From: Desulfosediminicola ganghwensis
Lineage (GTDB): Bacteria; Desulfobacterota; Desulfobulbia; Desulfobulbales; Desulfocapsaceae
DNA: 64,000 bases
Direction of reading: 5' to 3'
Assembly: GCF_005116675.2 (NCBI RefSeq)
Contig: NZ_CP050699.1
Span: 930,001 to 994,000, forward strand
Below are positions 10,735 to 15,950 of the stretch, piece after piece (position 1 is the stretch's first letter; each line of letters starts with the position of its first letter). A program made the position numbers and the translations under genes. Under the pieces are notes generated by a model that saw only the letters and a program-made list of their open reading frames with translations, was not told the origin of the DNA and ran no database searches.

Positions 10735-10760
10735 TTGACAAGTTGCCGGCTTTCTATAAT
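10735..10760 (+). promoter_or_regulatory. Possible promoter of the Trp-attenuated operon
   Basis: A consensus TTGACA (10735-10740) and consensus TATAAT (10755-10760) lie upstream of the leader peptide. Their spacing is only 14 bp, shorter than the 16-18 preferred by sigma-70, so the exact -10 may be offset. Confidence 0.4.
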
Positions 10761-10814
10761 TCTTAGGTCACTGATTTTTAAACCAGCAAATAAAACAGGT
10801 AACAGACTTTGATT

Positions 10815-10898
10815 ATGCATACTATTTCTTCTTCCAATAACTGGTGTATCTGGCGCAATTGGCGTAACTGGCGCGGATACGTCGACGGAAGTTGGTAG
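10815..10898 (+). CDS. trpL: Tryptophan leader peptide
   Basis: This 27-codon frame starts at ATG 10815 and ends at TAG 10896-10898. It encodes five Trp, at positions 10, 13, 16, 19 and 27, the last directly before the stop; the core reads NNWCIWRNWRNWRGY. A regular run of Trp every third residue is very unlikely by chance. It lies between a promoter-like sequence and an intrinsic terminator that precedes an anthranilate synthase gene, exactly the layout of a ribosome-mediated trp attenuator. Scarce charged tRNA-Trp would stall the ribosome here and favour read-through. No RBS of strong consensus is visible before it. Confidence 0.85.
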   Translation: MHTISSSNNWCIWRNWRNWRGYVDGSW

Positions 10899-10974
10899 TG
10901 GCATAGTCTCTTTAGTATGCATTGATATAAGGGCCCTTGTGAACCGACTTCAGGTTTGCAAGGGCCTTTTTTTT
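10888..10974 (+). terminator. trp attenuator: terminator and competing antiterminator
   Basis: The terminator stem GGCCCTTGTGAACC (10932-10945) pairs with GGTTTGCAAGGGCC (10953-10966), 14 pairs with two G-U, and is followed by eight T (10967-10974). A competing helix is visible: GAAGTTGG (10888-10895), inside the last codons of the leader peptide, can pair with CCGACTTC (10944-10951), which occupies the terminator loop and part of its stem. AGTATGCAT at 10915-10923 can also pair with ATGCATACT at the leader start codon. These are the parts required for transcription attenuation. Confidence 0.85.
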
Positions 10975-11083
10975 CTCCCTTACCATGCTTTTAAGGGAGA
11001 AAACGAGGTCGGGCAGATCCTGAAGAAAAGACGGAATCAGGTCGCTTTTCGGGCGCATGAAAATCATCTATCAGGAGAGCAAA

Positions 11084-12979
11084 ATGAAAACCATTCTCGA
11101 ACGCCTTACCTCCGGTTCGACCCCGTTCTGTATAATCCAGAAGCAGGATAGTGAAGAGATTCTTATCGTCACCGGTGAGACCGCCAGCTACCGTAACATC
11201 AAGGATATTCCCCGACAACATGGTGCAACAGGGAACGGCAGGGTGTACGACACCATCAGTGTGGTGCCGTTTTGCCAGATCCGGGAGCGTGGCTATGTGG
11301 TCCGTGATGGTGGTGAGGAGATCCTGACCATCAAGATTCACGAGCAGTATGAGGTTGATGCCGAGGAGTTCATTGGCCAGCTGCCCGTGGAGGAGATCCA
11401 TCTCGACGGGGAGATAACGTACGAAACCAGTGAGGAAGAGTACGGCAGGATAATCAGAAAAATTGTCGAGGATGAGATTGGTAACGGCGAGGGGGCCAAT
11501 TTTGTTGTGCCAAGAAATGCCAAGGGGCAAATTAATGACTTTTCGGTGGCTTGCGGTCTGACAATTTTCAAATCACTGCTCGAAAACGATTACGGAACCT
11601 ACTGGAAATATATCTTCTATAACGGTGAGCGATTCTTCATCGGCTCCACCCCTGAGCGACATCTGCTGGTGGAAGGGGGAAGGGTGAAAATGAACCCGAT
11701 CAGTGGCACCTTCAGAAAGGGTGGCGATTGGGCGAACAGAAAAGAGTTCAAAAAGGATCTGCTCACTTTTCTGACCGATCAGAAAGAGATCAACGAGTTG
11801 TTCATGGTAGTGGATGAAGAGCTGAAGATGATGGCCAAGATGTGTGATCGTGGTGGTGCCATTGTCGGCCCTCTGCTCAAAGAGATGTCACAGCTGATCC
11901 ACTCTGAATATCTGCTGGCGGGGGAGAGTGACAAAGATATCTTTGAGCTGTTTACCGATTCGATGTTTGCCGCCACTGTAGTTGGCAGCCCGGTGGAGAG
12001 TGCCTGTAAAATCATCGCCAAATACTCTGATTCATCCAGAAGGTACTACGGTAGCGCAATGATGCTGGTTGGCCGGGACCAGGATGGTGAGGACTTTCTC
12101 GATTCTCCAATCACCATACGTACAGCGGAGATAAGCGTTGATGGCAGTATGCATTTAAGTGCCGGGGCGACCCTGGTCAAAGATTCCGTGGCCGAATCTG
12201 AGGTACTGGAAACCAAGGCCAAGGGTGCAGCTATTCTCTCCTCAATTGTCAATCCCGGCAAAAAAGAGCAAACCCAGCCGCTGTTGATGCGCCTTTACAA
12301 TGATGACGAGATCGTGGAAACCATGGTCCAGCGCAACCAGAATCTTTCAAATTTCTGGTTCTTCAAACAGGAGACCGGTGACATCGCCGGCAGTAATGGT
12401 GAGCGGGTGAAGATAACTATCATCCACAACGAGGATGATTTTGTCTATATGCTACGTCATATGTTCAGCTGCATGGGGATCACGACCCATGTAGTGCGCT
12501 ATGATGAATATGATTTTACCAAAGATGAGAGCGATATAACCTTACTCGGGCCTGGTCCGGGTAACCCCAACGATACGGGTTCCCCAAAAATCGCCAGGAA
12601 TCTCGAGATTGCCGGCCAATTAATCAGCTCCGGGAAAAAATCGCTATTTATCTGCCTTGGCCATCAGATTCTCAGCCGCAGTCTGGGGCTTGAGGTGGCG
12701 CGCAAGGAAAACCCCCTGCAGGGCTCCCAGGTCAGAATTAATTTGTTCGGCCGTGAGGAGCTGGTTGGTTTTTACAATACTTTTGCTCCTAAAGTGCCCT
12801 TGCAGTTACCCGAGCAACTGCAGGGGCAGGAGATAGCCACCATGCCTGAACTTGGAGAAATTGTCGGTATTAAGGCAGAGAATTTTATAGGTTACCAATT
12901 TCATCCTGAATCTCTGCTAAGCAAGAACGGCTTCTCAATTCTCCACACCAGCGTGAACCACCTGCTTTCGAAAAAGTAA
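11084..12979 (+). CDS. PhzE-type fused anthranilate synthase (synthase + glutaminase)
   Basis: The 631-residue protein joins a chorismate-binding synthase domain (about 1-400; GSTPERHLLVEGG, MNPISGTFRKGG, IRTAEISVDG) to a C-terminal class I GATase (about 440-631; LLGPGPGNP, LFICLGHQILS with the nucleophile Cys, GYQFHPES). Its overall pattern, including VPFCQIRERGYVV and DEIGNGEGANFV, resembles PhzE of phenazine synthesis more than classical TrpE. PhzE makes 2-amino-2-deoxyisochorismate; anthranilate synthases of the same architecture exist. The Trp attenuator upstream argues that this copy makes anthranilate for tryptophan. AGGAGAG precedes ATG 11084, preferred to the ATG at 11057. No other trp or phz genes follow. 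Confidence 0.9.
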   Translation: MKTILERLTSGSTPFCIIQKQDSEEILIVTGETASYRNIKDIPRQHGATGNGRVYDTISVVPFCQIRERGYVVRDGGEEILTIKIHEQYEVDAEEFIGQLPVEEIHLDGEITYETSEEEYGRIIRKIVEDEIGNGEGANFVVPRNAKGQINDFSVACGLTIFKSLLENDYGTYWKYIFYNGERFFIGSTPERHLLVEGGRVKMNPISGTFRKGGDWANRKEFKKDLLTFLTDQKEINELFMVVDEELKMMAKMCDRGGAIVGPLLKEMSQLIHSEYLLAGESDKDIFELFTDSMFAATVVGSPVESACKIIAKYSDSSRRYYGSAMMLVGRDQDGEDFLDSPITIRTAEISVDGSMHLSAGATLVKDSVAESEVLETKAKGAAILSSIVNPGKKEQTQPLLMRLYNDDEIVETMVQRNQNLSNFWFFKQETGDIAGSNGERVKITIIHNEDDFVYMLRHMFSCMGITTHVVRYDEYDFTKDESDITLLGPGPGNPNDTGSPKIARNLEIAGQLISSGKKSLFICLGHQILSRSLGLEVARKENPLQGSQVRINLFGREELVGFYNTFAPKVPLQLPEQLQGQEIATMPELGEIVGIKAENFIGYQFHPESLLSKNGFSILHTSVNHLLSKK

Positions 12980-13701: not shown

Positions 13702-14004
13702 ATGAGTGTTCAAAGAAGAAGATACGATCCAGATTTCAAGCGCAATGCAGTTCAGCTGACCGATGATCCCGGCAGGTCAGTGCAAGATGTAGCCGACAGT
13801 CTCGGTATCTCTAAAGACCTTCTCTACAAGTGGAGGCGTGAGTTTCGAGCCAAAGAAGAACTAGCTTTCCCTGGGAACGGTCGTGAGGCTCTGACTGAGC
13901 AGGAAAAGAAAATCAGGGACCTTGAGAAAAAGCTCAAGGATGCCGAGATGGAACGAGATATCCTAAAAAAAGCTGTGGCCATCTTCAGCAGAGCACCGAA
14001 ATGA
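13702..14004 (+). CDS. IS3-family transposase OrfA
   Basis: The 100-residue protein has an N-terminal helix-turn-helix (YDPDFKRNAVQL...SVQDVADSLGISKDLLYKWRREF) that binds the IS ends and a C-terminal leucine-zipper-like coiled coil (EKKIRDLEKKLKDAEMERDILKKA), both standard for IS3 OrfA. AGGAGGAAG precedes the ATG. Its TGA overlaps the ATG of orfB (ATGA at 14001-14004), where IS3 elements normally couple or frameshift. Confidence 0.93.
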   Translation: MSVQRRRYDPDFKRNAVQLTDDPGRSVQDVADSLGISKDLLYKWRREFRAKEELAFPGNGREALTEQEKKIRDLEKKLKDAEMERDILKKAVAIFSRAPK

Positions 14005-14679
14005 AATATAGATTCATTGAAAAGAACCGCTCAGCATTTCCGGTGAAGAAGATGTGCCAGGCTTTAGAAGTTACCCCGAGTGGTTTCTATCGTTGGGAGA
14101 AAGCCCCTATCTCCACGCGAAAACGAGAAAATATACGGATTAAAGAGCGCGTGAAGGAAATCTTTAGCGCTCATAAAGGCATGGTCGGCAGCCCGCTTGT
14201 TACCGCTGACTTGCGAGATGAGCGTGAATTTTCCAGCGTTAGTCGGCCTCGCGTTGCGCGATTAATGAAAGAAATGGGGTTGAGGTGCAAAACAACAAAG
14301 AAATTCGTAGTAACAACCGATTCAAAACATAAGCAACCTGTAGCGTCGAATCTGCTCGATCGTAAATTCTCAGTTTCAGCTCCAAACACCGCCTGGGTGA
14401 GCGATATCACCTACATCAAGGTCGGTGCAAAATGGCATTATCTCACAGTGTTTATTGATCTATTCTCTCGCGCGATTGTTGGCTGGGATCTGAGCGATTC
14501 CCTGGAGAGTAAATCTGCAATATATGCACTTAAAAAAGCAATAATGAGGCGCAGGCCTGCACCAGGTTTGATGATCCATAGTGATCGTGGCATTCAGTAT
14601 GCAAGTTCCAGTTTCAGGGCTGTACTAACACAGAATGGATATATTCAAAGCATGAGTCGCAAGGGAAATTGTTGGGATA

Positions 14680-14885
14680 CTCAGTTATAGTGGTATTGAA
14701 TGTCAGGCTAGCCTGACCCGTGCTGGGATTGGCTCTATTGCCTTTGCGTTGACCTGTCGGCTGGCCCTGGCGTTCCCCATGCATCACTGGGCCGATTGCT
14801 TGTGACCTAATAGGAGCTTTGTCCTGCATCTTGAGTGTCCTGTCCTGTAATCCGGGCTGGTGATACCTACTAAACTTTTAGGAGG
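14680..14885 (+). ncRNA. Candidate bridge RNA in the left end of IS110
   Basis: IS110-group elements encode a bridge RNA in the long left-end non-coding region, which guides recombination. This region has the right place and size. It starts with a palindromic hairpin GTCAGG-CTAG-CCTGAC (14702-14717), and GGCCC (14763-14767) can pair with GGGCC (14789-14793) around an internal loop. The six bases TGGGAT at 14724-14729 repeat the left target flank (14673-14678), which might be a guide match but could be chance. Structure not computed. Confidence 0.45.
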
Positions 14886-14891
14886 TAGTCG

Positions 14892-15950
14892 ATGAGCAGC
14901 CAACTGACACGTGAGGTAATCCTTGGTGTTGATACCCACTTGGACCAGCACATTGGAGTCGTCATTGATAGCGTAGGCAAACTTTTAGGTCATTTATCAG
15001 TTACAGCTAATTCAAAAGGATATAAACAATTAGCTAAATGGGCTCGATCTTTTGGAGACCTGCAAAGAGCGGGGATTGAAGGTACTGGAACTTATGGTGC
15101 GGGCCTGGCCAGGTATCTTGCTGCGGAGGATGTTTTAGTTCTGGAAATTAATCGACCAGATCGTTCAATGCGCCGATTTCGTGGAAAATCTGATCCAACA
15201 GATGCTGAGAGTGCAGCCCGCACCGTTTTATCAGGTACCGACTGTGCAGTTCCAAAATCACAGTCAGGTGCAGCAGAAGCAATGCGTATTATTTCAGTTG
15301 CTCGACGTAGCACGGTTAAATCCAGGACACAGACAATCAACCAGCTAAGAGGCTTGTTAATTTCTGCGCCAGATGAAATAAGATCAAGATTATGGAAATC
15401 AAATGCTGCCGAGTGTGCGAAATGCTGTGCACGCCTTCGTTCTTTGGGTGAAACAAACTGGTCGAAAACCTTGGCAACAACACTTCGCCTCCTTGCTAAG
15501 CGCTGGTTATACTTGACAGAAGAACTGAAGTTATTAGACAAAGATCTGGAACAATTGACTGCAAAAGCAGCTACGCGGGTGCGTAAGCAGTTTGGTGTCG
15601 GGCCTCAAACAGCTGCCATATTGCTATCTGTAGCCGGCGATAATCCTGAACGTTTACGAAGTGAATCAGCACTTGCATCGTTGTGCGGTGTTAACCCTTT
15701 GGAAGCATCTTCTGGGAAAACAGTCCGTCACCGCCTGAATAGAGGTGGTAACCGAGCTGCAAACAATGCTCTCTGGACGATCGCCATGGTACGCATGAGG
15801 AGTGATCCACGCACCCAGGTTTATGTCGCTCGTAGAACTGCAGAAGGAAAATCCGTGAAAGAGATACATCGTTGTTTGAAACGTTATATTGTCAGAGAAT
15901 TGTACCCATTAATTTTGGCTGATTTGGAAGATGCCGCCTTGACCTCTTGA
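14892..15950 (+). CDS. IS110-family DEDD transposase/recombinase
   Basis: The 352-residue protein has a RuvC-like N-terminal domain with the family acidic residues in VILGVDTHLDQH, AGIEGTGTYG and GKSDPTDAESAART, a middle coiled coil, and a C-terminal Transposase_20 domain with FGVGPQTAAILLSVAGDNPERL, CGVNPLEASSGK (the serine motif proposed to be catalytic) and RLNRGGNRAANNALW. AGGAGGT lies just before the ATG. It looks full length and intact, so unlike the host IS3 copy this element may still be active. Confidence 0.94.
   Translation: MSSQLTREVILGVDTHLDQHIGVVIDSVGKLLGHLSVTANSKGYKQLAKWARSFGDLQRAGIEGTGTYGAGLARYLAAEDVLVLEINRPDRSMRRFRGKSDPTDAESAARTVLSGTDCAVPKSQSGAAEAMRIISVARRSTVKSRTQTINQLRGLLISAPDEIRSRLWKSNAAECAKCCARLRSLGETNWSKTLATTLRLLAKRWLYLTEELKLLDKDLEQLTAKAATRVRKQFGVGPQTAAILLSVAGDNPERLRSESALASLCGVNPLEASSGKTVRHRLNRGGNRAANNALWTIAMVRMRSDPRTQVYVARRTAEGKSVKEIHRCLKRYIVRELYPLILADLEDAALTS

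Follow-up and report, generated by a model that had tools for sequence, protein, structure and literature searches.

A predicted tryptophan attenuator upstream of a solitary fused TrpE-TrpG gene in Desulfosediminicola ganghwensis

The genome of Desulfosediminicola ganghwensis (5.65 Mb), a bacterium from a lineage of sulfate reducers, contains a fused anthranilate synthase-like gene whose nearest solved structure is the phenazine enzyme PhzE (3r74, 426 bits), and a short Trp-rich reading frame and a hairpin stand in front of it. The locus raises two questions: whether these elements form a tryptophan attenuator, and whether the enzyme behind them belongs to the tryptophan or to a phenazine-type pathway. 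We addressed them in a window of 64,000 nucleotides, the whole stretch of DNA that was analysed (G000:C1:930001-994000), and in relatives of the same genus and the same family, among them Desulfopila sp. IMCC35008 and further Desulfobulbales. We consider it highly probable that a ribosome-mediated Trp attenuator controls a solitary fused TrpE-TrpG that makes anthranilate and serves as a second, Trp-starvation-inducible synthase. The sequence elements, the degree to which they are conserved, the competition between the folds and the position of the protein in the tree are observed; how the switch responds to Trp, what the enzyme makes and how it shares work with the canonical enzyme are inferred.

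Elements of the leader region

The region and the gene that it precedes comprise the following features, all on the forward strand.

10735–10763, + strand: putative promoter, predicted from sequence, with −35 element TTGACA at 10735–10740; the −10 element is either TATAAT at 10755–10760 (14-nt spacer) or AATTCT at 10758–10763 (17-nt spacer), the choice being uncertain
10815–10898, + strand: predicted leader peptide ORF MHTISSSNNWCIWRNWRNWRGYVDGSW of 27 codons, with ATG at 10815 and stop codon TAG at 10896–10898
10842–10871, + strand: regulatory Trp codons W10, W13, W16 and W19, in UGGCGN-type repeats kept in the alignment of relatives
10888–10896, + strand: region 2, the 5′ strand of the antiterminator, GAAGTTGGT; overlaps W27 and the stop codon
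10929–10974, + strand: intrinsic terminator with a 17-bp stem, a 7-nt loop and eight T at 10967–10974; covaries strongly over 14 genomes
10943–10951, + strand: region 3 core, the 3′ strand of the antiterminator, ACCGACTTC; end of the terminator 5′ arm and loop
11084–12979, + strand: predicted fused anthranilate synthase gene, 631 aa, monocistronic, with Chorismate_bind at residues 117–380 and class-I GATase at 446–623

The predicted leader peptide contains Trp at positions 10, 13, 16, 19 and 27 (TGG codons at 10842, 10851, 10860, 10869 and 10893), exactly as an earlier note on this DNA had read it. In a shuffled 64-kb sequence, ATG-initiated ORFs of at most 30 aa with at least five Trp are expected at 0.025 per window. 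The fifth of these residues, W27, falls within region 2, and its presence is probably incidental to the region 2 sequence. The Shine-Dalgarno sequence of the leader ORF is weak; the synthase ATG at 11084 is preceded by AGGAGAG at 11073–11079. Most relatives possess a TTGAC element at a similar place upstream.

The intrinsic terminator with eight T described in the earlier note is present between the leader and the gene, its arms spanning 10929–10945 and 10953–10969. The competing helix proposed there (10888–10895 with 10944–10951; GAAGTTGG and CCGACTTC) is complementary at 8/8 positions and reaches 9 bp (10888–10896 with 10943–10951), one pair beyond the original description. The fold has a z-score of −4.7, and 0/200 shuffled sequences were equally stable.

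Folding of the RNA up to the terminator loop, a check that the earlier note had suggested, gave the antiterminator when a ribosome was placed at W10, W13 or W19, and the terminator when the ribosome was at the stop codon or when none was present. The leader thus contains a competing antiterminator which, in these folds, is masked by a ribosome on the stop codon and available when the ribosome stalls at Trp codons; its covariation is modest. In full-length RNA at equilibrium the terminator is always preferred (−33.4 vs −24.4 kcal/mol). The choice between the two folds must therefore depend on kinetics, as it does in known attenuators, that of the E. coli trp operon among them.

These elements suggest the following mechanism. 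With ample charged tRNA-Trp, the ribosome would reach the leader stop codon and mask region 2, allowing the terminator to form. When charged tRNA-Trp is scarce, it would stall at W10–W19 and leave region 2 free to pair with the terminator 5′ arm and loop during their transcription, resulting in read-through into the synthase gene. The fused enzyme would then make anthranilate for tryptophan. An Rfam scan produced no Trp-leader match at the gathering score, and a match to the trpB motif (17.7 bits vs 59) was rejected as being at chance level.

Conservation of the leader in relatives

Upstream of the gene, a leader ORF with Trp codons and then a terminator are found in 16/16 Desulfobulbales genomes for which both the gene and its upstream DNA were available (the window, L005–L012, L034, L037, L041, L042, L044, L196 and L197), and a W-R-x-W core is common to most of these leaders. 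A covariance model built from 14 genomes recovers L196 at 88 bits and L197 at 80 bits, neither of which was in its training. Among 58 relatives' genomes, strong matches to this model (E below 1e-16) occur at this gene only. Weaker matches elsewhere in the genomes were set aside as probably ordinary terminators, with no convincing Trp leader near those scanned.

A strong terminator positioned downstream of an ABC-transporter substrate-binding gene could be the terminator of that upstream gene, in which case the Trp-rich ORF would be there by chance. However, the leader and the hairpin accompany the synthase gene even where the DNA upstream and the gene neighbourhood vary between relatives, so that conservation contradicts this explanation, as do the low chance expectation for such a leader given above and the fact that region 2 and the loop change together. 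We regard its probability as negligible. Since its neighbours differ between relatives, the synthase gene is a solitary one.

Covariation in the terminator was reached by 0/500 shuffles. Antiterminator pairing is retained in 77% of cells, compared with 28–57% in slid versions. Column-wise covariation of the apical antiterminator is only modest (53/500 shuffles reach its score), and a partner-swap energy test was used for that reason. In this test the pairing of region 2 is on average stronger with the terminator loop of the same species than with the loops of other species: 149/20000 permutations were as good overall and 31/20000 after dereplication. Pairing of basal region 2 with the base of the terminator arm was no better than in permutations (4191/20000). 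Taken with the anatomy and the ribosome-stalled folds, the conservation of the leader, which the earlier note had named as a test, and the covariation support its reading of the region as an attenuator.

Fused TrpEG or PhzE

The gene combines Chorismate_bind and GATase domains in one solitary reading frame, and the earlier note had called its product PhzE-type. The name stands as far as the nearest solved structure goes, but not in the tree, where phzD-linked PhzE proteins, whose genes have phzD immediately upstream, form one clade of 13 rows (support 100/99; phenazine and related clusters of Burkholderia, Pantoea, Rhizobium, Rhodococcus, Xenorhabdus, Streptomyces and an E. coli plasmid) that excludes the window protein. 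The latter sits in a Desulfobulbales clade (100/99) and clusters with solitary fused genes, among them the Streptomyces type; many of these solitary genes carry Trp leaders. These solitary fused genes form a grade rather than a single clade, and the root is uncertain. The tree favours PhzE nested among Trp-leader genes, while rooting beside PhzE is not rejected (AU test, p 0.22).

Genomic context points the same way. No phzD adjoins the gene, and no PhzA/B was found in the genome in searches where phenazine plasmids matched as positive controls. Across the fused genes surveyed, a Trp leader does not occur together with phzD upstream: phzD-linked fused genes showed no convincing Trp leader, the sole exception being a chance-looking ORF in L131.

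A real attenuator could nevertheless precede a PhzE-like 2-amino-2-deoxyisochorismate (ADIC) synthase that feeds a pathway other than tryptophan. The best structural match to PhzE, the identical domain order and the presence of two of the three PhzE-specific residues in the first shell of the active site all agree with this possibility, and the product, anthranilate or ADIC, is not revealed by sequence (PMC5958127). A published account distinguishes PhzE from anthranilate synthase by first-shell residues (PMC5906492), but the same residues are found in a Rhizobium TrpE(G)-type protein, and they were rejected as product markers because they do not discriminate. Moreover, the gene lies outside the phzD-linked clade, lacks the phenazine context, and control of an ADIC product by Trp starvation would make little sense. 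We therefore find an ADIC synthase improbable here.

“Fused TrpEG anthranilate synthase” is a better label than “PhzE-type”, because the protein falls outside the PhzE clade and among solitary fused genes that often have Trp leaders, with neither an adjoining phzD nor PhzA/B; anthranilate, as the earlier note also proposed, is accordingly the probable product. That note had held that sequence similarity alone would miss this label; careful sequence comparison, which places the gene outside the PhzE clade, arrives at it too. Regulation and phylogeny together provide a ground for labelling “PhzE-like” genes of Desulfobulbales as tryptophan-pathway rather than phenazine enzymes. The contrast between Trp-leader and phzD-linked proteins also yields a short list of candidate positions that may separate anthranilate synthase from ADIC synthase (window residues 196, 240, 289, 323 and 545, among others).

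Fused genes of other lineages were seen in further settings. In the Nocardioides loci L048, L049, L055 and L058, a distinct TrpG-TrpE-like pair lies close to the fused gene and is encoded on its strand. The WW leaders of Aeromicrobium-type fused genes are very short, e.g., MTVQPSSWWLHL (L083, L097, L112, L133–L135 and similar upstream regions); in most Nocardioides fused genes no such leader was seen.

A second synthase beside canonical trp genes, and known systems

The gene had been described as standing alone, without other trp genes. This is true of the locus and not of the genome, which possesses a full set of separate tryptophan genes, with trpE-trpG-trpD-trpC-trpF near 3.878 Mb and trpB-trpA near 5.239 Mb, and also a PabB-type protein. 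With canonical trpE-trpG elsewhere in the genome, the fused gene represents a predicted second anthranilate synthase. No Trp leader was found before the canonical trpE operon or before trpBA; one genome thus has two predicted anthranilate synthases, with a Trp attenuator on the fused one only. Lacking a Trp leader, trpE-trpG-trpD-trpC-trpF would leave the starvation response to the fused enzyme, which is probably a Trp-starvation-inducible second synthase sharing labour with the canonical one.

The trpE-trpG-trpD-trpC-trpF operon (L114, 10205–11707; relatives L115 and L117–L122) is preceded by a small gene with a terminator hairpin at its end; in these loci the leader of the operon is short and contains no Trp ORF. 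A genome of the same genus (G002:C47; L116, 6418–8456) has a third TrpG/TrpE-like or PabA/PabB-like pair, next to oxidoreductase and transporter genes. In the window, genes for an IS3-like transposase (13702–14690) and an IS110-like one (14892–15950) lie shortly 3′ of the synthase gene (13702–15950).

The fused gene is patchy in the family, occurring in 13/93 genomes and 6/18 genera. Canonical TrpE is present in nearly all of its carriers; two genomes with the fused gene and no canonical TrpE (G031 and G063) were left out, as PabB matches are also absent from them and they are probably incomplete bins. The fused gene is therefore dispensable for basal Trp synthesis, which, like its patchiness, would fit an enzyme making anthranilate mainly for some other anthranilate-derived compound, with Trp starvation merely the cue. 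However, linked biosynthetic genes were not seen beside it and the neighbourhood varies between relatives, so we judge this possibility slightly less probable even than the ADIC synthase considered above.

We retain a starvation-inducible tryptophan-pathway enzyme as the preferred reading, and from it we tentatively speculate, with rather less than even confidence, that some Desulfobulbales split the first Trp step between an unattenuated TrpE-TrpG and an attenuated isozyme used in starvation only, and that PhzE arose from Trp-attenuated fused synthases that gave up both the attenuator and the pyruvate-eliminating step on joining phzD-linked clusters.

The leader shares the logic of the E. coli trp operon attenuator, which consists of leader Trp codons, mutually exclusive 2:3 and 3:4 helices and a U-run. 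Unlike in E. coli, the region 3 core is formed here by the top of the 5′ arm and the loop, and a single gene rather than an operon is controlled. In Rhizobium and Sinorhizobium, trpL-trpE(G) likewise places a Trp leader and attenuator before a solitary fused synthase gene, which is the arrangement found in the window; trpL also appears in PMC7298713. Their fused proteins, however, form the subfamily TIGR01815 (TrpE-clade3, Rhizobium type), against which the window protein scores 132 bits, compared with a curated cut-off of 739.

PhzE (3r74) has the same fused domain order and gives the best structural match at 426 bits, but its genes are phzD-linked, are devoid of a Trp leader and form a clade of their own.

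The Streptomyces trp attenuator resembles the window leader in its Trp leader peptide, Rho-independent terminator, monocistronic synthase gene and related fused family. The attenuator of the solitary synthase gene of S. venezuelae is cited as experimentally studied (Lin, Paradkar and Vining 1998, as referred to in PMC1262725), and PMC5958127 refers to its fused enzyme as an anthranilate synthase. In S. lividans the trpL1 leader precedes a monocistronic trpE (PMC8079986), and the L154 leader MFAHSTQTWWWTAHPAAH of our Streptomyces-type group is nearly identical to it. Leaders of that group follow the pattern MFAHST..WWW, a run of Trp, whereas the window leader has spaced W-R repeats (WRNWRNWR); the Streptomyces protein belongs to another phylum and to a separate clade only distantly related to the window protein. 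Among the open-licence papers searched, we found no description of a Trp-attenuated fused synthase in Desulfobulbales. The kind of system is thus already known from Streptomyces and Rhizobium, and the new elements are the lineage and the coexistence with a canonical operon devoid of a Trp leader.
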